From positions 6,968,483-7,032,482 of the forward strand of contig NC_087077.1 of NCBI RefSeq assembly GCF_026151205.1: a stretch of 64,000 nucleotides of DNA, in the 5' to 3' direction. Positions 642 through 51,560 of this stretch are shown piece by piece. Every line of letters begins with the position of its first letter. The stretch's first letter is position 1. Below the pieces are notes generated by a model. The model saw nothing but the letters and a program-made list of their open reading frames with translations. It had not been told where the DNA came from and did not search any database. The stretch is from Bolinopsis microptera (lineage: Eukaryota; Ctenophora; Tentaculata; Lobata; Bolinopsidae). Position numbers and translations under genes: made by a program.

Positions 642-1212
642 GATAAGATGGTGGTGGACAAGTTTTACGAAGTTTCTTGAGAGGATCACTACTATAACAA
701 GACTAAACAACTTTACAGGTAAAGGAGTAAGGGAAATGTGTATTGTGTAACCACATTGACTGTAAACAGTTACTGAAAACAAAAGAAGTGTAAATTGTTG
801 AATAATATTACGTTATTAATATTTTCATGTATAGTATTATGACCTAACTCACTGCAATGTTGGTCAATTGTTCATATTATGTGTTTGATTACTCTTGGAC
901 TATACAAATTTCAGCATGTAAACGGACGGCCTCAGATGTAGGAAACAACTTATTCAGGAATTTTTGGCAGAACCAAACCGAACTACGATTTTCTTTTCGT
1001 CGAACCGAACCGAACAAACCGAAATAATAATAATTATAGGCAAGTTACTTATACTTCGAGACGTACAAACCTGCTGATCTAACTGTAATCTCGTACCGGA
1101 AAATGACTTAACTCAATTCTGAATGTAAATACGGATTACGGGTTGTAACTTGTGTCATCGTCATTGCCATTCAATGAGCTGGGTATAGTAATCGACCAAT
1201 GACTTGATATTA

Positions 1213-1292
1213 GGCTGGTAATCACTAGTCAATTATTACAAGCTTAATGTATAGGCTTGTGATCACTAGTCAATTATTACGAGCTTAATGTA
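1213..1292. repeat. 41 bp tandem repeat, two copies
   Basis: Two adjacent copies of a unit containing ATCACTAGTCAATTATTAC followed by AGCTTAATGTA, with a period of 41 bp. The second large duplicon carries only a contracted version of this region (around 3575-3615). Confidence 0.8.
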
Positions 1293-1984
1293 GTATGAGC
1301 AAGAAAGAAAAACAAAGCTTTGTAGTTTTATTAAATGTAATGTAATTGTGAAGAAGACAGTTTTATAACTTTTAATAAATGCATTCCGTTCAAGGCCAGG
1401 TTAAGAGTATCAGTCACCATCTGAAGTTATTCAGTTCAGCAAAGAACAATGTTTAAAACCTTACCTGATAAAAAATAATAAATGACTTCACTTAGACTTA
1501 GAAATTTAAGATTCGTAGAAGATAATCAGAAGTCATAATCTGCAGACAAGGTCCTTTTCTTCTCATACCTCATTGGATTCAGACAAAAAGTTGTCATAAT
1601 TCAAATTGATTAGTCTTACAATTGAGGATTTCCGATGCATAGGTTCAAAAGCTCAACAAACACAAAAAGTTCAACAAACACAAAGATTGGACACACTATT
1701 AATCACTGATTCAACCAGCAAGTTTTGCTTTCTTCTTGGCCGTTTTTTACCGTCCCATATTGTCTACAGCTTGCTACGCACTTCAACGAAAACAGTTCCT
1801 CTGGAATAATTCCAACCAAAGGCAGTCGTGCACATCGGCGTTCACAAACCCGATAACGAAATCTGAAGTTTTCGGCTGATTGTTCAAATTATGCTGTTTG
1901 TTCGGATGTAAATCTTTAGGTTAACTGTTCGAATAAACTTCCTCAATCCAGCTGTTTTAATATTTCCTTAATCTCCAGTCTTGT

Positions 1985-2260
1985 TTACGAACTCCTCATA
2001 TGCATGTTCAGGTACACATCGGCACTTTTCATTTCAGTTGTTGGCTCATTCTTAAATATTTCACCGGTCTTCAGCCTTCTGTCCGGAGGTATGTCAAAAT
2101 TGTTGCCATCTCTACAAAGAGGAGGACAGATCGTCAAGGCTACTCGGAACAACAGAATAAGAACGCCGATAAAAAATACAATGATTTTCAAAAGAGCGCC
2201 TTTTGACTCTACGATAGAGTGAGAATGAGAGTCATGAGACTCATTTAGTGAAATTGGCAT
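1985..2260 (-). CDS. small single-pass membrane protein, paralogue B
   Basis: A 91-codon ORF with an N-terminal Ser/His-rich stretch (MPISLNESHDSHSHS), a hydrophobic segment at about residues 25-43 (IIVFFIGVLILLF), then ICPPLC and the motif PPDRRLKTGEIF, and a polar C-terminus. The copy at 4453-4728 is almost identical in protein sequence. The ORF at 396-641 is a distant relative that keeps the hydrophobic segment, the double cysteine and the DRRxKTGEI motif. No signal peptide precedes the hydrophobic segment, so a type II or tail-anchored-like topology is possible, but this is inference. An acceptor-like TTGTCTCAG lies upstream on the same strand, so the ORF may be an exon. Function unknown. 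Confidence 0.55.
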   Translation of the reverse strand: MPISLNESHDSHSHSIVESKGALLKIIVFFIGVLILLFRVALTICPPLCRDGNNFDIPPDRRLKTGEIFKNEPTTEMKSADVYLNMHMRSS

Positions 2261-3956: not shown

Positions 3957-4107
3957 TAGTTGTAAACTAATTACAACACTACAAATCTATTACATTTATT
4001 GAGTATTATATAAAGCGATGGAAATATTTTAAGCGGGTAATATCCTGTCAAAACCCAGGATACATAACATGAAGACTTTGTTGTAACTTTGTATGGAAAG
4101 CATTAAT
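3957..4107 (+). mobile_element. 150 bp insertion starting with the shared 46 nt leader
   Basis: Copy 2 of the duplicon has about 150 bp here that copy 1 lacks: GATTTCCGAT lies before it and AGGTTCAAAA after it in both copies. The inserted piece starts with AGTTGTAAAC and continues through ACTAATTACAACACTACAAA to TTATTGAG at 4003. The same leader lies at the 5' end of the LINE at 16086-20786 and twice at 26.9-27.5 kb. After TTATTGAG the four sites differ. ATAG occurs on both sides and may be a short target duplication. Confidence 0.65.
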
Positions 4108-4452
4108 AGGTTCAAAAAGCTCAACCAACACAGAAAGCTCAACAAACACAAAGATTGGACACACTTTTAATCACTGATTCAACCAGCAAGTTTTGTTTTC
4201 TTCTTGGCCGTTTTTTACCGACCCATACTGTCTACAGCTTGCTACGCACTTCAACGAAAACAGTTCCTCTGGAATAATTCCAACCAAAGGCAGTCGTGCA
4301 CATCGGCGTTCACAAACCCGATAACGAAATCTGAAGTTTTCGGCTGATTGTTCAAATTATGCTGTTTGTTCGGATGTAAATCTTTAGGTTAACTGTTCGA
4401 ATAAACTTCCTCAATCCAGCTGTTTTAATATTTCCTTAATCTCCAGTCTTGT

Positions 4453-15862: not shown

Positions 15863-16085
15863 TCTTAGGATTTCAAAGCGAAGGCGCTTTCTAATGTATC
15901 CTACAGCATCCGAGTACCTCTGGCCAGTGTGGTACTCCATCTTACTGGCCAGCTTCTTAACCAGTCTTTCAGCTTCACCACCCACTTCAAGAACCCTTGC
16001 GTTGTAACATCGCTTTTTCTCATTTTCATGGGACTGGTACATCGCTGGGATCGATTTGCTTGCATTGGAGGGGGCTGGGGCATGA
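15863..16085 (-). pseudogene. split retroelement-type ORF, middle segment
   Basis: The minus strand reads FHAPAPSNASKSIPAMYQSH, then ENEKKRCYNARVLEV, GEAERLVKKLASKM and GYIRKRLRFEILR. It continues the segment at 20787-20929 (ending AFFDVRV) once the LINE at 16086-20786 is removed, giving RVFHAPAPS across the joint. It continues into 15056-15208 once the 654 bp insert is removed. Family unknown; relatives I recall carry an FTPLVFS stretch after the KKRxYxxRVxEV motif that is absent here. Confidence 0.7.
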
Positions 16086-16271
16086 AATAATAATAATAAT
16101 AATAATAAATACAACATTTATAAACCGCCTTATAGCTAAATCATATAACTCGATATAATTTAATCCTGGAGATAAACTCCAGTGCTTTCTAAAGCGGCTC
16201 TTACATTAACTGAGCTTAGTTTAATTGAAAATTAGACATGACAAGTTCATTTTACCTATGTAAATGCAAAA

Positions 16272-19134
16272 TCAATCAAATGCTAGAGAAAAGAAGTATG
16301 TTTTAAGTTTGGTCTTGAAAGATGTAACTGACTCAGCTGATCTTATGTCGTATGGCAAGGAATTAAATACTTTAACTGCACAGTGACTAAAAGCTTTCTC
16401 TGTGTTTACATAGTTAGGAGAGGTTGGAAAACTAAGGTAAAAATAATCATTATCAAGACGTACATTTTTAAAACTTTGCTGCCTAGGAGATATCAACTCT
16501 TTTAAGTAAGGAGGAGCTATATTATTTAAACACTTGTAGGCAAGTAGGGCAATCTTAAAATCTATTCTAAATCTAACTGGTAGAAAATGAACTTTCTTAA
16601 GAAGTGGAGTAGTGTGTGCCTTTCTTCCTCTCCCGAAAATAAATCTTACAGCAGAATTTTGCACCTTCTGTAAACGACTTAAATCATAAGAGCTCAGTCC
16701 AAAATATACGCTATTGCAATAATCAATTCTAGAGAGTACTAGAGCATGAACAAGCTGAATCTTAAGGTTAAAAGACAGTTTTGATGCAATAAACCACAAA
16801 TTTCTGATCTGAATATTACATGCTTGAACCACTGACGTAATCTGATCACTCATTGAAAGATAACTGTCCAAATACAGCCCAAGACTCTTCACAGTTCCAC
16901 TAACAACATGTGGCTCTTGATCCTTAACAATCTGTAGAGAGGCTGGAATATTTGTTGAGTCAAATTTAGAGGATATAACGATGACTTCAGTCTTAGAAGA
17001 ATTCAGTTGAAGGAAATTGTTTGATGGGTCATCAGAATCAAGGGTCTGATGGGTCATCAGAATCAAGAGTGAAATACAGCTGGGTGTCATCAGCATACAA
17101 ATGAATACAGCACCCATGCATACTTGCAATGTTCTCAAGATCTTTGGTGTACAATATGAATAGCAGGGGGCCAAGGATTGAACCTTGTGGCACACCTATC
17201 TCAAGAACAGTTGCTGAGGAAGACGAATCCTTGACTTTGACACAAAATGAACGGTTAGCCAAGTAGGACCTGATCCATGTAAGAGCAATGCCTGTAATGC
17301 CATAAGCAGATCTTAGCTTCTTGATTAATCTTGGGTGATTGACAGTATCAAAGGCAGCACTCAAATCTAGAAGTAAAAGAACAACTTTAGTTTTCTTGTC
17401 AATAGTTATCAAGATGTCGTTATGGATTCTGGTTGTTGCAGTTTCACAGCTATGAAACTTCCTATAGCCGGACTGAACTTTAGAAAGCAAGTTGTTATCC
17501 TCAAGATAACTGGTGAGCTGTATAGATACACACTTCTCAATGATTTTTGACAAGAATGAGAGATTGCTAATAGGCCTATAGTTAGATAGAGATTCACCGT
17601 CAAGGCCACGTTTCTTCAAACTTGGACGAATGAGAGCCTCCTTAAGTTTTATAGGAAACTCACCTTTAACTAATGATTCATTGACTATAAATGAGATCAG
17701 AGGAAGGAGTTCTGGGAGACACTTGATAAGAATCTTTGTAGGTATGGGGTCAAGATCACAGAATTTGTTAGACATATTCTTTATGATGCTTACTAGTTCT
17801 TCATCAGACACATGACGGAATTGTATCTTTGGGCTATTAGAAAGAGGAACAAATTCATCTGAGTTAGGAGAATCTTGGGATTGTTGTTCTAAATAAATGT
17901 TGTTGTATATGTTGTCGACCTTTGATTTAAAGAACTGTGCAAAGTTGTTAGCACTCTCAAGATTTGAAGAGCAAGAAGGTGTAGTAGTACTAACTTTTTC
18001 TTTATTGAGCAACTTATTAACGATGGAATAAGTCTTTTTAGCATCACCTGCACTATCTTGTAACCTTGTTTTGTAGAAGTGATCTCTTGTGGATACAATG
18101 ACTGAGGATGCTCTCTCTGATGCTTTCCTGTACAGTCGTTTATAATCTGGGCAATCATGATTCTTTTGATACAGTCTCTCAATCTTTCTTCTCATTGCTT
18201 TTGCTTGTTGACAGTGTGTAGACCACCATTCAGCGTTATGATCTTTTCTTGGGATGAAAGTTTTTTCTTTAGCATGCTTGTCCAAAATACTGCTCAACTC
18301 AGACTCAAAGATATCAACTGCACTATCGAGGTCATTGAAGCAATCAGTGTCACATAGTTTTGACTTAAGAATGTCCTCAACAAAAGCATCTAGGTCTATG
18401 CAAGCAATGTTTCTGTAAATAATTGGTTCTAGAGTGCCTATGGGTGCTGGAGATACATTGCAATTGAAAGCAACAAAGTAGTGGTCAGACGATGTACCAG
18501 AATCAGTAATGACAGGATCTAGAACTTCAATGCAATCGTGAGTAAAAGAACCATCCCTGGTAATTACAAGATCTAATATGCCCCCATCTCTGTGTGTTGC
18601 AGCTGAAATTTGTTGCACCCACCCACAAGACTTAAGTAGTGAATTAAACCTTTGTGCAACTGAATCATTTTCGTCTTCAATGTGGATATTAAAATCACCC
18701 ATGATCAAGGGCTTTCCAGGTTTGTCTACTAAATCAACCAAGAGTTGCTCAAAGTCAGTTAGAAATTGGGGGATGTTAGCACTCTGAGATGTGGAGGTGC
18801 CAGAACGGTAAATTGAAACAATTCGTAGTATATCTCCAGAAGATGATTAGAAGGTACATTCACAAGACTCAAACGTTTTGAATCGCTTGCACTTCTGAGG
18901 AGTCACTTTAAGACTTTTCTTATATAGAACAGCAACACCTCCTCCCCGCCCAGCTCTTGGCTGGCTATGAATGGAATATCCAAGTTCTTTCATCTCAGAA
19001 AACTTAGCATTGTCATCTTTTCTCAGCCAAGTTTCTGTAGCACAGCAAATATCAGTATCAAAGTCTTCAAGCAATTGCATGACTCCAGCAGTTTTATTGC
19101 AGATGGATCTGCAATTGAACAGGGCAAAGTTCAT
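16272..19134 (-). pseudogene. LINE ORF2: APE endonuclease and reverse transcriptase, two lesions
   Basis: It starts MNFALFNCRSICNK, 29 bp after the ORF1 stop. Endonuclease motifs: NCRS, ETWL, IYRSG, GDFNIH (with the Asp and Asn), LDLVIT and SSDHYFVAF. Reverse transcriptase motifs: LIRPSLKK, YRPISNLSFLSKIIEK, the catalytic Asp in LLLLDLSAAFDTVNH, GVPQGSILGPLLFILYTKDL and YADD. The C-terminal part has LQKVQNSAVRFIF and LLKKVHFLPVRFRIDFKIA, typical of the CR1/L2 group. Two lesions are visible. One is an in-frame TAA at 18847-18849 after CECTF, with the same frame open again at once (GDILRIVSIYRSG). The other is a 25 bp tandem duplication at 17022-17071 that shifts the frame after YADD. The spacer between YADD and NNFLQLNSSK is also shorter than usual, so a small deletion may have come with the duplication. 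Confidence 0.9.
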
Positions 19135-19163
19135 ACTCTGACATTCTGACTTAGAGTTTGTAG

Positions 19164-20727
19164 CTAGTTTTTTGAAGTAAGGATGTTTTGTTTATACCGA
19201 TTCAATGCCTGTTGCATGATGGGGCACTGCTCTGAGCTGGAATGGTGAGTGTTACAGTGAGATGAGATTCTTGGATCTTTTGACAGACTGCAATTGCGAC
19301 ATCTATGTCTGCTAGGGTCTTCCTTGTAATGACAGTCTGATGTTCTATGCCTACCGCTGCAATACATACAAACCAGAGTTTCTTTCTCAGGACAATTTTG
19401 GGAAATATGGTGGAGCTTCTGACAATTATAGCACTGCTTGATGATGAATCTATCCTTTACAGGACAAGCACTATTCAGAATGAAGATTTTGCCGTCTCCT
19501 GTCAATAGGTTCCTAATCTGAGGAGAGACCTTGATCCCAGCAGTAGTGTACCTTAGTCCAACATTTATGTACACAATTTCAAAGAAATGCTCATTATCTA
19601 GCAAGTGTTTAAGTCCAGGATTTTTCAAGGGAATAATATCTAGAAGAGCTTTTTTAGTCTGTAACCGGAAATCTTCAGCGGGCAAACCAGAGCGATCAAT
19701 GGTTTCGAATATCTGACTGGGAATATTAGACACAGTGACCTTAGGGAGAGCTTTCTGTGAGAGAGTGATGTGAAAACCAAGTAATTTAATGACATCAGAG
19801 TTTTCAATAAGACTTTTAGCCTTCAGCCTATCAGATGAAGATGGAAAAACTAGCGTTATCTTCTTATGTGAATCTAGTAGGCTAGTTTTCATAGCAATCA
19901 ATCGTGTGTCATAGAGCAACTCAGATAGAACATCTGGAGCAGATGAAATATCAGCAGAAGGAGAGGGACTATCTAGCACCAATATCTCTTTACTTTCCTT
20001 GCTAATTTGATTTATGTTAGCGGACACTTTACTTGGCTGAGGAGAACTAGCACCACCTACAAGAGCTTCAGCAAAATTGCTGTAAGAGGACAGTGCACTT
20101 GGAGACCGGGATTGCAAGTTTTCTTTGTTAACATTAGAAACTCGCTCTTCCAGCGAATGTTCAGAGGCTGGAGCACATAGAGCAAGCTTGTCGACAATAA
20201 TGCTATGCATTTCCTCACGAAATGATTCCAGAAGGGCAGAGTTGTTTGCCCTCATCAGATGCTCAACTTTGGAGAGAACATCAGGAGCTTCATCATGACC
20301 ATTATCATGACTCATCACAGGGTTGGACTTAGAAGCATCTACCACAGATGGTACAGGTGGACCAGGTGGAGAAAAGTTTTTGGAAGAACGGGTGTCATCT
20401 ACCAGTGAAATGCAATCTTCACATACGAATAGAAAATAACCCCAACGAGCTTGATCTGCAATCATAGGTCTCACCTTAGCACGGAAGGTATTTGTACAAA
20501 TGGACTCAGGAAATTGAACACTGGTTTTTTTTGCGACAAGCGGAGTGAAACATCCCATCACAGACATTACAGATAATCGATTCATTCACAGTGTCATTAC
20601 TCCCACACTGTTTACACGAGCCGTCTTCAAATACAGGAAGTATAACAGAGTTCTTCTTTGGCTTTAGAGTCTTCTTGAGCTTCTTACTGGCCAGGGCCTC
20701 GTGCCCCTTTTGGCCCGCCATTGACAT
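19164..20727 (-). pseudogene. LINE ORF1: PHD-type finger plus CCHC knuckles, one frameshift
   Basis: The start is MSMAGQKGHEALASKK with a basic N-terminus. A PHD-like C4HC3 finger follows: CKQC, CNVC, FHSAC, and, after a frameshift, VCEDC. The shift sits in an A8 run (plus-strand T8 at 20525-20532); one A fewer would join the two frames through CRKK into TSVQFPESI. The middle is Ser-rich, then comes a folded region (KKITLVFPSSSDRLKAKSLI...). Near the C-terminus lie zinc-knuckle motifs CYNCQKLHHISQNC and CMYCSGRHRTSDC, plus further Cys/His pairs. The role is presumably RNA binding and particle formation for the LINE. Confidence 0.85.
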
Positions 20728-20739
20728 TGCTTCCTGAAA

Positions 20740-20786
20740 CTCAATAAATGTAATAGATTTGTAGTGTTGTAATTAGTTTAAAACTT
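20740..20786 (-). promoter_or_regulatory. 46-47 nt leader at the 5' end of the LINE
   Basis: Read on the minus strand, AAGTTTTAAACTAATTACAA leads on to ATTACATTTATTGAG, then TTTCAGGAAGCAATG of the LINE. The same leader is found at 3958-4003, 26898-26938 and 27441-27481 with different sequence after TTATTGAG. It could be a common promoter/5' UTR module or a spliced leader copied with the RNA. Confidence 0.6.
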
Positions 20787-20929
20787 AATACCCTTACATC
20801 AAAAAATGCTCTCTCTGAAGCATTCCAAATCGATCTTGCAGAAATGTCCAGCCTAGCTTGGTCTCCTAGGACTGTTCCCTTTGGTAACTCTAGACCATCA
20901 ACTGGAAGAAGAACTGGCTCAGTCTGCAC
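20787..20929 (-). pseudogene. split retroelement-type ORF, N-terminal segment
   Basis: The minus-strand frame reads DVQTEPVLLPVDG, then GDQARLDISARSIW and ERAFFDVRV, where the LINE interrupts it. The arrangement xEPxLxPLxG, ARLDIxARxxW, FFDVRVF is one I recall from many invertebrate repeat-encoded proteins; it resembles a PD-(D/E)XK-type nuclease fold (inference only). The ORF continues at 15863-16085 and 15056-15208. Sequence further 5' (20930-21110) is degenerate and contains two copies of CAGAGACACCTTTGCAG (minus strand). Confidence 0.65.
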
Positions 20930-21110
20930 ATCCCTGCAAAGGTGTCTCTGTTTTGGAACATTATTATGCTTGAGCTGCTTGAGTTCTGCAAAGGTGTCTC
21001 TGTTAAAAGTAACATGGGTTCCCTAAACCACAAGATCACCATTTTCATTTTAGGCAAAGGCTTCAGCAATCAGCATCTTTATTTCTGACCATTTTAAAGG
21101 CTTCACTGTC

Positions 21111-24835: not shown

Positions 24836-26215
24836 GTGACCAACTGCTTAAATCAGTCACACACTAATTTTCCCTGCCTCATGCCTACTACTGGAAACTG
24901 TATCTCCAGACAAGTGTCAGACGTTACTATGCATTGGTTGCTCTTCAAAAAGGTTAGCAAAAAGATAAAGAGTGCGACCCTGATAAACTTTTGGGAGAGA
25001 TTCATCGACGACATATTTGGAGTGTGGATGGGGACAGCGGGACAATTTACAATGTTTGTCGAATTGTTGAACAAACTGGCTAAATCAAACTGGCAGAACC
25101 ATATAGAATCAAGGTTATCTTTTTAGACCTTACCTTGAGCTTGGACTCAGAAAATCAGATCTGGTACAAGCTATTTAGAAAGGAAACAGATGCTAGGAAC
25201 TACTTGAGATCAGATACATATGTAGTTTCCAACCCCACCATGTGTAGAGGACCTGGGCGAACTAAAGGAGGATCTTGCCAGATGCGGACACAACAACAAC
25301 GGTGACAAACTAGAAGAAATCGAGCCGAAAGCAATACAGAGGTCTATTGAGAACCCAGGAAATCCAACCAGAGACACTGAGGATAAGACACAACAGAGCC
25401 TCGTATTTTCCGTACAACACTCTTGATAACATTAGTCTTACAAAGTTGGTTAAGAACTTAATCTGGTCATTAAGCTACTAGGTTAATGTTATGTGGGGAT
25501 GTACGGATAGTATTTGCCACTAGGAAACACCCTTCAATCGGTAATACACTAGAAAAGAATCGACAACTGGGACAACTGGAAACCCTTGATGTAGGACAAT
25601 TACAGAGGTGTAATGGACCTAGCTGCAAAATTTGCCCCGTCCTCTTTGACAAGGACTCAAAAGATCATGGGGGGGGGGGGGGGGGGGCCAATGACTACCA
25701 ATAGAGACTTTTGGGGACTAATGGGGACTAAAAATCATGGGGACTAGAGGTCAACTCGTTGACGTAATTCACCATTTGTCCCCATAAGTCCCCAGAATTT
25801 TTGACAGTTATTTATGGTTTTCAAGTTAGTTTAATAACGATACGATCGAGATGTTTTGTCCAAGATAAGAGTAGGATAAATCTAAATGGGGACTAATGGA
25901 GACTTTTGGGGACTAAAAATCATCTAAATGGGGACTAATGGAGACTTTTGGGGACTAAAAATCATGGGGACTCTGGGTAAAATCGTTGACGTAATTCCCC
26001 AAGTCCCCAAAAGTAGTCATTGGCCCCCCCCCCCCCCCCCGATCATGGTCAACAACATAGAACTGGTGCTAGACGGAACTCTAAAATGCAAGGACAAGCA
26101 TGTTATCTACCTTATTGGTCATAATTATCACGGACATTACTTTCACACTGAAGACCTCAGCGTGAATTATTATGTCCGTGAAAATAATGTCTGTGGTATT
26201 AAGGTCCGTGAATAA
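24836..26215 (+). pseudogene. Penelope-like retroelement relic, split by an insertion
   Basis: The plus-strand frame reads FWERFIDDIFGVWMGTAGQF (reverse transcriptase motif with the two Asp), then in other frames IWYKLFRKETDARNYL, TRKHPSIGNTLEKNRQLG and RCNGPSCKICPVLFDKDSK. After the inserted element come LKCKDKHVIYLIGHN and GHYFHTEDLSVNY. The order RT DD box, RKxTDxxxYL, Cys-rich CxxxxCKxCP and VIYLI...YxxTE is that of Penelope-like elements with a GIY-YIG domain. Stops and frame changes show it is dead. The 372 bp interruption is the G-ended element at 25669-26040. Confidence 0.72.
25671..26040. mobile_element. G-ended TIR element 1 (370 bp), 8 bp target duplication
   Basis: Left end: a G run, then CCAATGACTAC (25688-25698). 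Right end: GTAGTCATTGG followed by 17 C (26024-26040). The left G run is 19 long; taking two of those G as the end of the target duplication gives GATCATGG on both sides (25663-25670, 26041-26048) and exactly 17 G against 17 C. The interior is repetitive: ATGGGGACTAATGGAGACTT is repeated twice (25887 and 25927), with related words in inverted orientation. No ORF. The insertion breaks a Penelope relic. Confidence 0.85.
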
Positions 26216-26760
26216 TAAAGTCCGATAATTATTTCCATTAATTTTAGTGTGCGTCCCACATAGGCGTAGATATGTCTGTAGCCGATTACTATATTAGCTA
26301 ATTAGTATACTAGGACAAATATAATCACTCCTCAGTCACATTCTAGAGTTCAGAAAAAGAGTAAAAAACTGAATATTATAAACTGGAGTTATTTCAATTT
26401 TAAAGAAGACATTTTGGCTAGTATCCCGAACCGAGATATTATATGTGCAATTTTTTTCATGGAAGCCTTTTTACTTAGTATCCACTACAGGCACGTAGCC
26501 AGGATTTTTCTTTGGGGGGCCCTTTGCGAGCGGAGCGAGCCGACCCGTTCAATCCAGCTGCACAACAAAATTTGTTGTTTTCTTGATTTTTTATGTATGG
26601 TGTAAAACAGTGTAGAGAAGTGTACGATCGAAGAATATTTCCAGATTTAAACATGTAACAATTGTTGTTTAAATGCTACCTGAAGCTGTTCAAATGAAAT
26701 TGAACTGGGAGAATCGAGAAGATTACAAGTCACAGCTACGTACAACAATCAGGGTCAGGA
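26216..26760. other. no gene seen
   Basis: Non-coding AT-rich sequence. A GGGGGGCCCTTTGCGAGCGGAGCGAGCC-like stretch near 26513 resembles the edge of an interspersed repeat but has no partner end that I could find. Confidence 0.35.
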
Positions 26761-26765
26761 ATGAA

Positions 26766-27866
26766 AAGGGATACGTAGATAGAGTTCCTTATAATCCCTG
26801 ACTACGACAGGGAGCTGAAGGCAGATCTGGGAGGGTCTGGGCACAATATTATATTGCTATTATATTATCATCTGCACACTTATACTTTAACTTAGCTTAA
26901 ACTAATTACAACACTACAAATCCATTACATTTATTGAGGATATGAGTATGACGTAGTTATGTCGATACGTTATTCAACTATTTATTTCTATTAGAATCTG
27001 TCTTCACTAAGTCTATTTAGAGACAATCAGAAATTTGAATCATTTATCAAGACATTATACTTATACATCACAAAACCTCCGACTTGATTTACAACTTAAC
27101 TTCACAAACACTAATCATATAATACAAACTTACTCTGTCGGTTATCATACTATAATTCAAGGCAACATTAGCGTCCGTGAATTGATCTCTGCAGGAGCCC
27201 TCCCTTACTAAAACTTGTGTCTTCATCTGCCGTATTACTTGGGAATATCGCCGGTCTCAGCTTCAAACATAAAGGTATGATATTCAATAGATGCCGCTCT
27301 GCAAACTTCACCTGAAAAGGGATAAGTAGATAGAGCTCCTTATAATCCCTGACTACGACAGGGAGCTGAAGGCAGATCTGGGAGGGTCTGGGCACAATAT
27401 TATATTGCTATATTATCATCTGCACACTTATTCTTAGTTTTAAACTAATTACAACACTACAAATCCATTACATTTATTGAGGATATGAGTATGACGTAGT
27501 TATGTCGATACGTTATTCAACTATTTATTTCTATTAGAATCTGTCTTCACTAAGTCTATTTAGAGACAATCAGAAATTTGAATCATTTATCAAGACATTA
27601 TACTTATACATCACAAAACCTCCGACTTGATTTACAACTTAACTTCACAAACACTAATCATATAATACAAACTTACTCTGTCGGTTATCATACTATAATT
27701 TAAGGCAACATTAGCGTCCGTGAATTGATCTCTGCAGGAGCCCTCCCTTACTAAAACTTGTGTCTTCATCTGCCGTATTACTTGGGAATATCGCCGGTCT
27801 CAGCTTCAAACATAAAGGTATGATATTTAATAGACGCCGCTCTGCAAACGTCACCTTATCACCTAC
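26766..27866. repeat. 0.55 kb direct tandem duplication
   Basis: Two head-to-tail copies, about 26766-27317 and 27318-27866, are almost identical. Each contains GACTACGACAGGGAGCTGAA, the shared leader (26898-26938; 27441-27481) and, on the minus strand, an exon-like frame reading LNIIPLCLKLRPAIFPSNTA. That frame lies behind an acceptor-like TTTTCAG in copy 1. Whether it is coding is uncertain. Confidence 0.85.
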
Positions 27867-29170
27867 CTGAAACAGATTTTAAGATAAGCAACTAAATAAA
27901 GATTCGTTGAGATTCTGAGTTTCTGCCCTGACGGCTAACCAAATAAAATTTGGTTTAAGATATTTACCTTCTTTCAGATTTCTTTTTTAGACTGAACTAA
28001 ACTTTAAACGATAACCTCTGAATGATCTGAACAACTAACTTTAAGGACATCGATCCTAAGAAATGGCCGTTTTTAAAAGCATTAAAAAATTTCAAAGGGT
28101 CTACACAATGTCAATAACGCGCGGCCGGCTGGCGCTAGATATTGTAAAAGGCTTACGATTTTTTCCTTTATTCATCAGAAAGTCAATGTGGCAGACATAA
28201 AGAGCTAAAACTCTGTCAAAGCTTCTAGATCAATCTTTCGATACTGTTTAGGCGGGAACTACAGGAGGTGCTATTTTCAGGTCCGTCTAGATCTCTGATA
28301 GGAAAAGTTAGTGGATCACTGGATCCGTCCCTGAAGTGAAACAAATGTTACTATCTTGCAAATGTTAACCATTTTATTTCGATTAGAATCGAATTTAACA
28401 TACTTAAACTTGATATGATGTAATAATGAGGTACGTGTAAAAATCAAGGGTATCCCTCGAGCCAGTTCAGCTTGTGTAGTATAACAAAATAAATAGGGAA
28501 AAATAAGGGAGAGTACCTGGTGCCATGCTGTGTCAACAGAAGCGCTGAGGATAAATTCAGTGAGCATTAGTTGGAAAGGATTGTCATCAGTTACTGTGTG
28601 AGTTAGTGTTGTGGTGGACGAAAGGATAAGCCGCTGATCAGGGATATAGGCCCCTCCTCACGAACTCTCTGCTGTGTTGGCGCAACGAGTGAGACTTTGG
28701 GGTGGTCAAAAGATGTGATGGTCCCGTCAAGTCTTGGCGAAACTCAACATAGGTCAGATAGGTAGAAAACAATGCCATTGGAAAACTCTATCCAATGCAA
28801 TAGTCACATTATAGTCATTTCTAGAAGAAGAAAAAAACCTGGTTAATGTTGTTTAATGTGAGAGAATAAGATAAAAGAGTCGACCAATTTTTGTCAGTGT
28901 AAATATTGTCAAACAGCGGGCTCCAAAATCGTCTAGGGGGAAAGAGCCCTGAATATCAGCTATCTGCCTTAGTACCTTGGCTCTAAAGTCTAAATTATGC
29001 AGCGATGACGACATAAAAAGTCGCTGTATCATGGCAAATCTTGCTTTGTCAGAACTAAAAGAAGGTTTAGGAGCAAAGTAAATATCAGACTTAAGATATG
29101 AAAGCACAGAAAGACTGAGTCAAATGTACAATTGTAGCTGCTGTCAGCTATTCTGCATCAAATAAAATAT
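27867..29170. other. no gene recognised
   Basis: Several short minus-strand ORFs (28316-28567, 28853-29107) without recognisable motifs. The ORF at 28853-29107 (SSLHNLDFRAKVLRQIADIQ...) looks faintly protein-like but could not be assigned. Confidence 0.4.
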
Positions 29171-47127: not shown

Positions 47128-48591
47128 CTAAAATTCTTCAGTACTAGCTATGATAAAACGTTTAATAGTATCCAGTTCTTCTCTCTTGTTAATTGTAGGG
47201 TTCAGATTAATAATAAACATCGCTTCGAAAATCTTTCTTCTGACAGTATTGGGCTCAATTCTTAAAATATCTACTTCTAAACTGGGATTTAACCCCTTAT
47301 GACAGCTCGAATAATGTATGGCAAAAGCTTGACTAACATTAGAAGGGGTAGCAGGGTAGGTAGCGTAACGTAAGTGTTCTCCTACACGAGCATGTACTTT
47401 CCTACTGGTTTCTCCAACGTACAGCTGGTCACATAATTTACACTTAATCTTATATACAACATTCTTCACTTCACAATCTTTATTACAAACTATCAAAGGA
47501 CAAATTTTACATGAATTAATACTGCACACACGTTTATCATACGGTCTGTTACTACATAAAATATTTCTCAATTTCGAAGTAGGTTTAAAGTTTACTTTAA
47601 TAGGTAAATTGTTCTGCTTTACATAATTTCTAATCTTATTGCTAGTACTGTCCGAAATAAAATCTAAATTAAGAACTGTCCTGGAATCATCCTCAACACT
47701 CTGACGCCTGTTAGAATTACTACTGTTACAATAACGTCTTGGGTTCTGGTACCCGTTTTTCTGTAATAGATCATCAAGGAGTCTGAGAGAGTGCTCCTTT
47801 TCCGCTGGGCCAGATGAGATACGGCAAGCCTCGCTATATAGGTTCTTCACTGTATTAATCTTAACAGACTCAGGATGACAAGAGTTGTTGTGCAGGGTAA
47901 TATCCTTTTGTTGCGGCTTGCGGTACAATCTGCTGGTTAATTTACCGTTTGGCTCGATCCGGACCTCAGTGTTCAGGAAGGGGATAAAATCGTCCTGTTG
48001 TTCTGGAAAGTCGACCTCCCACTTCAACTTTTTGTCCGGATCTTGGTCTGCAATCTGTTGAACCAGAGCAAGGGCTTCTTCTTTCGTCTCTGCAGTACTG
48101 GCAGCATCATCTATGTAGCGTTTGTAGAAGTTCGATAAGTATACCGATAGGTAGTGTCGATCGGTGTAGATAGAGTTCTTCTCGAACTTGTACACTCTAA
48201 TGATGGCACAGAAGGGCCCTGGCCTCAAACCCATGAACAGACCATCCTGCTGTAGCCAGAGAGTCCTGTTAAAAACAAAGAAAGAGTTGGTAAGGATGTG
48301 TAGTAGGATCTCATGAATGTCTGTCAGGCTGAGTCCCATCAGGTCCAAACTGTCTCGGTGCTCTGTAGCTAGCTCAATGACATCGTCTATACAGCCCTGT
48401 ACGTTTATGTTAGTGTATAAAGCTGAAATATCCGCGGCAAAGAACTTTCTCCTGGCAAGCTGTTCCTGAGAGATCTGGCGGAGCATCTCTATGTGCTGGA
48501 TTAAATTACTCAGGTGACTAGGCACCTCATTAAGGAGAGGTTTAAGAATGGTCGTCACTAGCCAACTGAGTCTCTCTGTAGGTGAGTCCAC
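47128..48591 (-). CDS. Penelope-like element ORF: RT plus GIY-YIG, 5'-truncated
   Basis: 487 codons without a stop. The start, SPTERLSWLVTTILKPLL, matches the thumb-side entry of Penelope RTs. Motifs: FFAADISALYTNI (catalytic Asp), GLFMGLRPGPFCAI where the family has GxxMGxxxSPxxA, FYKRYIDD (catalytic DD), WEVDFPEQQDDFIPFLNTEV and LYRKPQQKDITLH. Next come a Cys-rich linker (CSINSCKICPLIVC) and the GIY-YIG endonuclease VVYKIKCKLCDQLYVGETSR...GEHL, then NPTINKREEL. Penelope elements nick the target with GIY-YIG and prime from it. The N-terminal part before SPTERL is absent, so the copy is truncated near 48600. The minus-strand 3' flank has a repeated GTGATAACAGATGATAAG (46929-46965). Confidence 0.88.
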   Translation of the reverse strand: MDSPTERLSWLVTTILKPLLNEVPSHLSNLIQHIEMLRQISQEQLARRKFFAADISALYTNINVQGCIDDVIELATEHRDSLDLMGLSLTDIHEILLHILTNSFFVFNRTLWLQQDGLFMGLRPGPFCAIIRVYKFEKNSIYTDRHYLSVYLSNFYKRYIDDAASTAETKEEALALVQQIADQDPDKKLKWEVDFPEQQDDFIPFLNTEVRIEPNGKLTSRLYRKPQQKDITLHNNSCHPESVKINTVKNLYSEACRISSGPAEKEHSLRLLDDLLQKNGYQNPRRYCNSSNSNRRQSVEDDSRTVLNLDFISDSTSNKIRNYVKQNNLPIKVNFKPTSKLRNILCSNRPYDKRVCSINSCKICPLIVCNKDCEVKNVVYKIKCKLCDQLYVGETSRKVHARVGEHLRYATYPATPSNVSQAFAIHYSSCHKGLNPSLEVDILRIEPNTVRRKIFEAMFIINLNPTINKREELDTIKRFIIASTEEF

Positions 48592-48600
48592 GCAGCTGAT

Positions 48601-51560
48601 TAGAATATTGATTTATTTACTATTGACCGTCAAGTCTGAAGGAAATAGTAATTAAGCTTGCTCCATTTTTAACCTTTTGTTACCTTGGCTGTAATTCCTT
48701 TCATTAATTCTTCACTCCTTCCATCGTTAACCGATAGCTCTTGTAACTGACAACAATGTAGGCCAAATTAAAACTGATAAAATCAATCTCTCCCTTTCTC
48801 TCTCTTTTTCTTACAACAAATCAAGTCCGGCGGCCACGAGTTGTTGGCTGAGCTCTTGTTAAATGTTATTTGGCATATTTACACCGTAACTGACACGTTT
48901 TGTAACATCTCTTTTGACCGATCGGTAGCAAATTTTTAAACCTTCTTCCGTCTCTTTAAAGGATGGGATATTTCATTTACTAATTAATTAGCGGATTGAA
49001 AATTCACATTCTGTTATTATTTTCTCCCTGACATCCCGACAACATGCAGATCATTATGTGTATTATCATTACCCCTCTTTTTCCTCACTTTACTCCTCCA
49101 CTTTACTCCTCTCTTGCTTCTCACTACTACCCATTTGCCATCCTCCTGTCAATCTGTTCCCTTAAACAAGGATAATCACCAGAACATGTGACATGACTGA
49201 TCACCCATTTGCCTGTCTGGCTGCTCTCTACGTCACCCATTCTTGAGATCTGCTGCACTGTGTGGCATGCTGAACTGAGTTCTACTGCCGTTGTAACTTC
49301 TTGGTTGTTTTATTGTTTAATATATGATTGTGGTGGAGGTTGTACTTTGCTAGGAAATAACTAATCTAATAATTTGTGGCTCATATTTCCAATCAAAGTC
49401 TTAAATTAAGTTAATTTCTGGATTTAAATGAGCTTGCTAGAGTTATTATAGAGGATCAGAGAAAACGTTCTTTAGAATAAGATTATTTAATCATACATCA
49501 TGTATTTTTATAATTGCTGCTCTTTACACTAATTAAAATGAACGGATCTCTTTGTTCTGCTACACTCTAATAAATTAAGTCATTTGCCAATGTAATTATA
49601 TATTCTGAAATGCGATTCCTTTAATTAACAAGATCCTTTCCTTTTATCTGTGACTCAGAGGGGATAATATCATTACAGGTCAATATCATTACTATTTGGG
49701 GTCATACCTACTTTTGTTAGAGCTTGGTGGCTGGATTGATAAGCTAGGTTTTTATTATCCAATCTTTTGCTGTTTTCAATTATCTTAAGCTAGCGTGATG
49801 TAAATATCTAATCAAAAATTGTGACCAACCGTTGGAGAATAATATTTACTATTTTAGATTTAAATAATATTCCATATTTTTCGAAACCCCTCACCATCTT
49901 ACTATACAATTTCTCTTTCCGGTACAAGCTGCAGAGTTCCCCGAGTTGACCTCTATAATCTATTTGCCTATGACAATATCGCACTTAACTCGCACTTAGC
50001 AAGAAATTTGACTATGAAAAGTATGTGGCAGCTTTCGGCAATTTGGCTATCGAAAAGGTTGTTATAACACCAAGAATTCTTGGTCAAAGTGCTGATAGGC
50101 ATTTCCACGGGTCGAAGTTTACAATTTGGGAATATAATGCCGAGTCAGAGAGTCCTAGTGTGTCGGACAGTGCGACGGTTCCCACCTAGAGCACACTTCC
50201 CTCCCTCATTACTCACACTTTCATCGGGGTGGCTCCACGCTGCAACTCGTGCTGCAGGTAGGATCTATGCAACTTCTCCTTCCATGCAACTTTTAGCTAC
50301 GCGCAGTGACGTTTGTCACACCAGGAAATTCGTACAACAACCTAACCTTCTGGGTGATGTTGACAGATGGATCTGACTTGGTCGTGTCACAGTTGTTATA
50401 ACAGTGTAAAACTACTGGTTCCTCTGCCTCCACCCCGGCTCTCTGGCTTTATGGTTACCCTCACCAGTCACCACCACCTGGGTAGCTGTTTCAGGGTTAC
50501 TACCTGTGTGGTTTCAACATGACGTTCTGTTCACAGTCTCGTGAGATTTTAGTGTGTGAGTCTCTAATGTTTCTAAAAGAGGTAACGGGGGCGACCAGTT
50601 TAAAATGTAACTAGATTATCATGCCCCGTTGTAACTTCTAGACTAGCATTTGTCAAACTACTCATTTATTCAATTCCTTTCGAGCTTTTGGAGGGTGTAT
50701 GAGCGGCGACATGCCCTGTTCGCCTTACTCCTTTACTCTCTAGAGTTTTCTTTACTGAAGATGAGTACCTAATTGTGCGAAATTGTTCAAAATTCCTCTC
50801 GCGTCTACATAAAGACATAAATTTTTTGAAATCAAAGAGCAGTTTGTGCATTTTAAGGTTTTCTTCTTCCTTTGCTTCATACTGTTTAATATTTCCTGTT
50901 CTTGTTATTTTCTTTTCAACACATAATCTCCCGGGTATTCCACAGAACAAAACTTAAGCTGATGTAATATTATATTTCTATTATATAAAGTCGCTGTTCG
51001 TGGGTGATCTAAAAGACGCTATGATATAAAAGTAAGTTTTCTCCACTTCCTTTAGTTCACACTTTTACTTGCCCAGTTTTCTTTCTTTTCGACAAATTGA
51101 AAGTTTCCTGATATTACCCGGAAAACTTAAGTTTACTAACACTATTTTTTACGTTATAGAAGTATAACACTTTAGAAGGCACTACGATATTCATATTTTA
51201 TAACCCTACTAGGAAGGCGTGAGCCATTTAAATACTGAAACACTTTCCGGTTATTTAAATGTCAAACTTAAGTAACCGTCCAATCGTGGCCATTCTTACG
51301 CTGTTTAACAAAATCCGTCTAAAATATGATACCATTTGAAATATCAAAATAGTCTACATTTTATTCAGTTTTAATACTTGCATTTTCAACACTACTTGAG
51401 CTATGCAATCTGGGCGACAAGCTTGAAAAGTTAAAATTGACTGAAGGGCGTTCCCCCTCAGTATAGCAACACCTCGCTATATTTATTCAGGGTACTTTAA
51501 AATCATTTTATTTATTATAGAATGCATTTTGAATAAAATAAATTTTTCGAGAAAAAGTTG
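48601..51560. other. no gene recognised
   Basis: AT-rich sequence with short chance ORFs (50080-50376, 50666-50950). The ORF at 50666-50950 is rich in Lys/Glu but has no motif. A C/T-rich stretch (CTCTTTTTCCTCACTTTACTCC) lies near 49074-49110. Confidence 0.4.

Follow-up and report, generated by a model that had tools for sequence, protein, structure and literature searches.

Leader copies in the window

The window, a stretch of 64,000 nucleotides of the Bolinopsis microptera genome, contains a 46-nt sequence (the SL-A leader) at the 5' end of a LINE, at the head of a short insertion and in two copies within a tandem duplication. The features concerned are the following:

3958..4003, + strand: SL-A leader copy, head of the short insertion
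4004..4108, + strand: body of the short insertion, from a dispersed SL-headed family (27 sampled places) that is termed SINE-like for its size and spread only
16090..20739, - strand: body of the LINE (LINE-A), with the joint between the leader and TTTCAGGAAGCAATG at 20739/20740; delimited by the empty-site copy L008, with RVT_1 and endonuclease matches; the 3' limit is approximate
17038..18846, - strand: LINE-A ORF2, endonuclease and reverse transcriptase (RVT_1, 4.2e-27; Exo_endo_phos_2, 2e-07)
19164..20585, - strand: LINE-A ORF1, 473 aa from stop to stop, with a weak CCHC zinc knuckle (Pfam E 0.013, below the cut-off)
20740..20785, - strand: SL-A leader copy, 46 nt, 5' end of the LINE, matching the exon of the SL-A RNA gene array
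26762..27739, + strand: tandem duplication of 543-551 bp with both C-variant leaders, inside a dispersed repeat of ~3 kb or more
26898..26938, + strand: SL-A leader copy, C variant, 5' part diverged
27436..27481, + strand: SL-A leader copy, C variant, full length, in the second unit of the tandem duplication

The leader core, ACTACAAATCYATTACATTTATTGAG, occurs with 0 mismatches at 3978-4003 (+), 20740-20765 (-), 26913-26938 (+) and 27456-27481 (+); four matches were reached in 0 of 100 shuffles of the window. The first-pass annotation had reported that the LINE and the short insertion begin with the same 46 nt and diverge behind it. This reading holds, as the sequences downstream of the leader copies indeed differ within the window, with the corrections that the LINE copy (20740-20785, minus strand) extends one base less than claimed and that the full 46 nt at 3958-4003 (+) carry one T-to-G change. 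The borders of both insertions had been taken as independently fixed, which is borne out by an uninserted copy in each case. Positions 1230-1504 of the empty-site locus L008 match window 15863-16089 and its positions 1501-1652 match window 20787-20938, thereby giving the limits of the LINE, while the duplicon copy at window 1147-2232 lacks the short insertion. The two further copies noticed at 26898 and 27441 are also real, but they represent one event and not separate ones, because both lie inside the tandem duplication.

LINE-A ends in an (ATT)n tail near 16084-16108, and its ORF2 is followed by an open frame in another phase (16272-17195), corresponding to a frame break in the window copy. 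The reverse transcriptase, the endonuclease and the microsatellite 3' end are consistent with a CR1-like LINE. Scanning the whole window with Rfam gave no gathering-level match, and the region 26200-28600 gave none at E<=1. Elsewhere in the window, visual inspection of an open frame at 47128-48612 (minus strand) showed motifs resembling those of a reverse transcriptase and of GIY-YIG, which suggests a Penelope-like element. Locus L008 itself carries an SL-B copy (see below) heading a body that starts with TTCAGGG.

Spliced leader RNA genes

The first-pass annotation had proposed that the 46-mer might be a spliced leader (SL), in which case a gene should exist where it is followed by GT, an Sm site and hairpins. 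Tandem arrays matching this prediction are present in the genome, and they support the identification of the 46-mer as the putative exon of an SL RNA gene (SL-A). The SL-A array spans C1:14490813-14549177 with a unit of ~434 bp and some gaps, and 76 exact places of the exon followed by GGT are found in it among the matches listed. Each unit is ordered as exon, GTAAGATTAAGTTCC, stem, CUUUUGG, and stem. Two paralogues, SL-B and SL-C, have the same unit plan and the GTAAGATTAAGTT start. SL-B arrays are located on C3, C5, and C13, and these contigs hold 70 of the 72 exact places of the SL-B exon followed by GTAAG, mostly in arrays. The SL-C array lies on C5 (unit ~428 bp; 20 exact places among the matches listed). 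Across the eight array loci that were read, the exon is directly followed by GTAAG in 46 of 47 cases and by GTAAAG in the remaining one.

In all three SL RNAs the Sm-like motif CUUUUGG sits between two stems, and one pair of the first stem appears as A-U, U-A or U-G across them, both judged by eye. The predicted folds score only modestly better than shuffles (z of -1.5, -2.5 and -2.0), and the structural claim is based on the plan common to the three genes as judged by eye. SL RNA genes are typically multicopy, arranged in tandem arrays, and often linked to 5S rRNA genes. Two of the four SL-B array pieces, L144 (C5:21.34 Mb) and L146 (C13:12.94 Mb), contain 5S rRNA (RF00001, 109.7 bits each), which shares the tandem unit with the SL-B genes; the same scan gave no 5S match in L040 (SL-A), L143 (SL-B, C3), L147 (SL-B, C13) or L145 (SL-C). 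The SL-B arrays matched SmY only below threshold (23.1-24.5 bits vs 39), which was not relied on.

Dispersed leader copies

The 264.65-Mb assembly, of which the large contigs C1-C13 sum to 258.07 Mb, was searched for dispersed leaders. A 38-nt core of the leader has 870 places with up to three mismatches and its reversed control has 0; with up to one mismatch and arrays included, SL-B has 1516 places and SL-C 162. Reading 104 distinct non-gene places (SL-A 83, SL-B 17, SL-C 4) yielded 25 body clusters, some of which may be fragments of one another (e.g., L116, L058, and the second leader of L148). SL-A is over-represented in the sample, since places were mostly collected with an SL-A pattern, and so are leaders ending in GAG. 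Copies with identical flanks were merged (30 C-variant loci became 4 places, L103-L105 one, and L106/L107 one), and the changed leaders of L135 and L142 as well as L159-L161 were left out of the clustering. In the sample, the dispersed leader copies head repeats or single bodies and end at the donor boundary. Confinement of the 46-mer to one LINE family and its derivatives, the finding that the first-pass annotation had named as contrary to its idea, is therefore not what the genome holds.

Besides LINE-A and the SINE-like family (27 places), the clusters include two families with a PHD-like finger in the first frame (Pfam; above the cut-off in L123, below it in L095), which may be LINEs, though no reverse transcriptase was read there. 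Another SL-headed family (L093, L096, L098, L099, L101, L103, and L106) shares a conserved stretch around GCCGAAACGTCGAC that resembles a hammerhead on visual inspection; for the five members covered, Rfam found no match at E<=0.1. Across 13 SL-headed loci Rfam returned one weak match below threshold (Twister-P5, 25.2 bits vs 37.6), which was not relied on either. Single-copy retrocopies of host genes were also sought as proof of host trans-splicing, and the candidates L072, L042, L111, and L121 were dropped: the body of L111 is a repeat with 29 matches, and Pfam gave nothing useful on the short ORFs of these loci.

Some leaders occur in inverted arrangements. Head-to-head pairs ~50-65 bp apart were seen at L090, L148, C1:7307505/7307563, C1:16284611/16284668 (SL-B), and C3:9105132/9105197 (SL-C). 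Both leaders of L090 run into the same body and those of L148 partly do so, giving a palindrome; the pairs would be in keeping with fold-back of a cDNA end or with the joining of two cDNAs. Furthermore, 7 of the 83 SL-A places have the 5' end of the leader repeated in inverted orientation immediately upstream of it, vs 0 of 83 in a control stretch (L052, L056, L058, L087, L090, and L101; two of the seven are the arms of L090). The near-palindromic start of the leader, AGTTTTAAACT, could self-prime.

Exchange of leader types

Searching the genome with the LINE-A body only gave 18 matches, counted as 17 insertions because two adjoining matches on C11 look like one interrupted copy. A leader is present in 16 of them, the exception (L155) being truncated. 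At the same joint, where the leader is directly followed by TTTCAGGAAG (SL/TTTCAG, the slash marking the joint), seven insertions carry SL-A, five SL-B, and two SL-C. The other two leader-bearing copies are joined further inside the body, one to SL-C at TTTCAG/GAAG and one to SL-A at GGAAG/CAATG. One SL-B copy matches the query body at 93% identity and the others at 99-100%, and six of the seven SL-A copies (L001-L006) start at AGTTTTAAAC, presumed to be the first base of the SL RNA.

The same exchange recurs in other bodies. Of a family whose body begins with GACCCC, 25 copies reach the body start, which is preceded by TTGAG in 23, by GTAAG behind a changed SL-C in one, and by CATAG without a leader in one. 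The full starts of 16 of the 25 were read (SL-A 3, SL-B 10, SL-C 2, none 1); for the other nine the last five leader bases were seen, and three of these adjoin listed SL-B or SL-C places. The sole leaderless one of the 25, L158 (C5:13948020-13948260), has a flank that ends in CACCATAG exactly at the joint; it could be a source copy that retains its outron, or else a cis-spliced exon. L161, which starts at another inner position of this family, lacks a leader and is a plain truncation. In the CCTGAAG cluster SL-A heads both arms of one palindrome and SL-B occurs once, and the TTCAGGG cluster has one SL-A and one SL-B copy.

Where a body is joined at two positions by a clean joint, the longer body can be read for an AG preceding the inner joint. 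All five clean alternative joints (L087, L100, and L102 were not assignable) lie directly after an AG of the body, whereas chance would give AG in about one dinucleotide in sixteen:

L154: TTTCAG/GAAG
L077: GGAAG/CAATG
L053: CCAAAG/TAATACG
L159: GACAG/GAATG
L160: CGAAG/ATATG

Origin of the leader-headed copies

That copies of one element bear different leaders at exactly the same joint is best explained by trans-splicing before reverse transcription. We consider it very probable, judging from the genomic sequence, that SLs are trans-spliced onto element RNAs, that these RNAs are copied back into the genome, and that the leader type changes over repeated cycles. LINEs, SINE-like elements, and other repeats would yield transcripts, begun in the insertion or upstream of it, that receive an SL, and a reverse transcriptase (the element's own or that of another LINE) would copy the RNA to its 5' end, so that the new insertion begins with the leader. 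The window LINE and the SINE-like insertion both have the leader at their 5' border and an empty site elsewhere, as is characteristic of SL-tagged retrocopies.

Some observations count against this explanation. TTTCAG looks like a better acceptor by consensus and yet is left behind the leader in 14 of the 16 leader-bearing LINE-A copies, which had already been raised by the first-pass annotation as speaking against a simple splice at that point. This objection loses force in view of the three leader types found at that joint in one LINE and the one copy joined after TTTCAG. Another is L158, with its non-leader flank ending in AG at the GACCCC joint, which could be a source copy. In addition, no LINE-A copy with unspliced upstream sequence was identified, and the folds predicted for the SL RNAs score only modestly.

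If the 46-mer were instead a module of a single retroelement family, serving as its promoter or 5' UTR and passed on to deletion derivatives, its position at the 5' end of LINE copies, of other repeats, and of the SINE-like family (27 sampled places) would be accounted for. The 46-mer is, however, an exon in snRNA-like tandem genes, it heads 25 body clusters, and copies of one and the same element have SL-B or SL-C in its place; this exon-donor structure and the leader exchange lead us to reject the module as highly improbable. An even smaller chance is left to target-specific insertion into SL RNA genes, the behaviour of SLACS and CZAR elements in trypanosomatids. SL sequence does flank the elements on one side, but by eye, in the dispersed copies that were read, the flanks upstream of the leader do not continue the SL gene, for which reason this alternative is rejected; they also differ between copies, except within duplicated repeats, and the empty site of the window LINE (L008) has no SL gene at that point.

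The leader might also be gained during reverse transcription, when the enzyme leaves the element RNA and jumps onto an SL RNA or an SL-headed mRNA. LINE enzymes have been described to jump onto other RNAs, as far as the accessible literature shows, and the fold-back leader copies upstream of SL-A places indicate that the ends of the cDNA are indeed subject to rearrangement. All five clean inner joints follow an AG, however, for which a jump should have no preference. In addition, the leaders of the 104 sampled places stop at the donor boundary, a figure in which earlier breaks would be missed because a GAG end was required at collection. Such template jumping therefore appears improbable, if somewhat less so than the two alternatives above.

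Comparison with known systems

Retroelements tagged with an SL have been documented or suspected before, in flatworms, Hydra, and dinoflagellates. According to the accessible text on parasitic flatworms, partial leaders lie within mobile elements (LTR/LINE) at 597 discarded loci, and SL capture by retrotransposons was suggested (PMC12582326). SL copies in mobile-element loci are thus common to both systems, whereas the exchange of three leader types at one joint of one element, as seen in B. microptera, is not reported in that text (PMC12582326). In dinoflagellates, trans-spliced RNAs are copied back into DNA with their leader, and the splicing of another SL at an AG within the existing one leaves truncated tandem relicts (PMC6050394, PMC3229502; accessible portions). 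Retrocopies with a leader are found in both, and re-splicing at an AG within the old leader has been proposed there, but tandem relicts accumulate in dinoflagellates whereas no tandem-leader excess is apparent in the ctenophore copies examined. TTG directly before the leader, which is exact in three SL-A cases (L106 was read and is not an SL end; the other exact cases were judged from TTG alone), shows no excess, and before SL-B it is exact in 9 cases vs 18 for TTC and 16 for TTA (among 100 of 389 matches listed). What was less to be expected is leader exchange with no apparent excess of tandem relicts.

In Hydra, ~30% of the TE Iso-Seq reads carry an SL in the accessible part of the report (PMC12220107), meaning that animal TE transcripts do receive leaders; the evidence there is RNA, whereas in B. 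microptera it consists of DNA insertions with exchanged leaders. For the ctenophore Hormiphora californensis, a leader on 56% of the Iso-Seq reads and 718 genomic copies have been published (PMC8527503), and the leader exon given there aligns with SL-B. The SL section of that paper does not link the copies to retroelements, in contrast to the sampled dispersed copies here, which head repeats or single bodies. Within the accessible literature, which left subscription papers mostly outside, we found no report of leader exchange or SL-headed retroelements in ctenophores.

Possible renewal of the leader and implications

Leader exchange at SL/TTTCAG implies that an acceptor AG is needed at that place. 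It could be provided by an outron in unsampled source copies or by the terminal AG of the old leader. The latter would make the inserted leader a self-renewing 5' end, as RNA begun upstream of the insertion would be trans-spliced again at the old leader's terminal AG, which is feasible because the leader ends in AG behind an AT-rich stretch. The old leader would be wholly removed and a fresh one added, leaving no relicts and shifting the leader type with each cycle, and the element would consequently need no 5' promoter of its own. We regard this self-renewal as a tentative proposal, somewhat less probable than not, in view of two observations: none of the 17 LINE-A insertions is an outron-bearing (unspliced upstream) source copy, and L158 is possibly one for the GACCCC family.

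The exchange of leaders provides DNA-level evidence that LINE RNAs are trans-spliced before reverse transcription, and it allows cycles of retrotransposition to be tracked by leader type in an early-branching animal phylum. The idea that retroelements obtain and renew their 5' ends through host trans-splicing becomes testable as well. Some of the "SL copies" counted in ctenophore genomes may represent the heads of retroelements and not SL genes.
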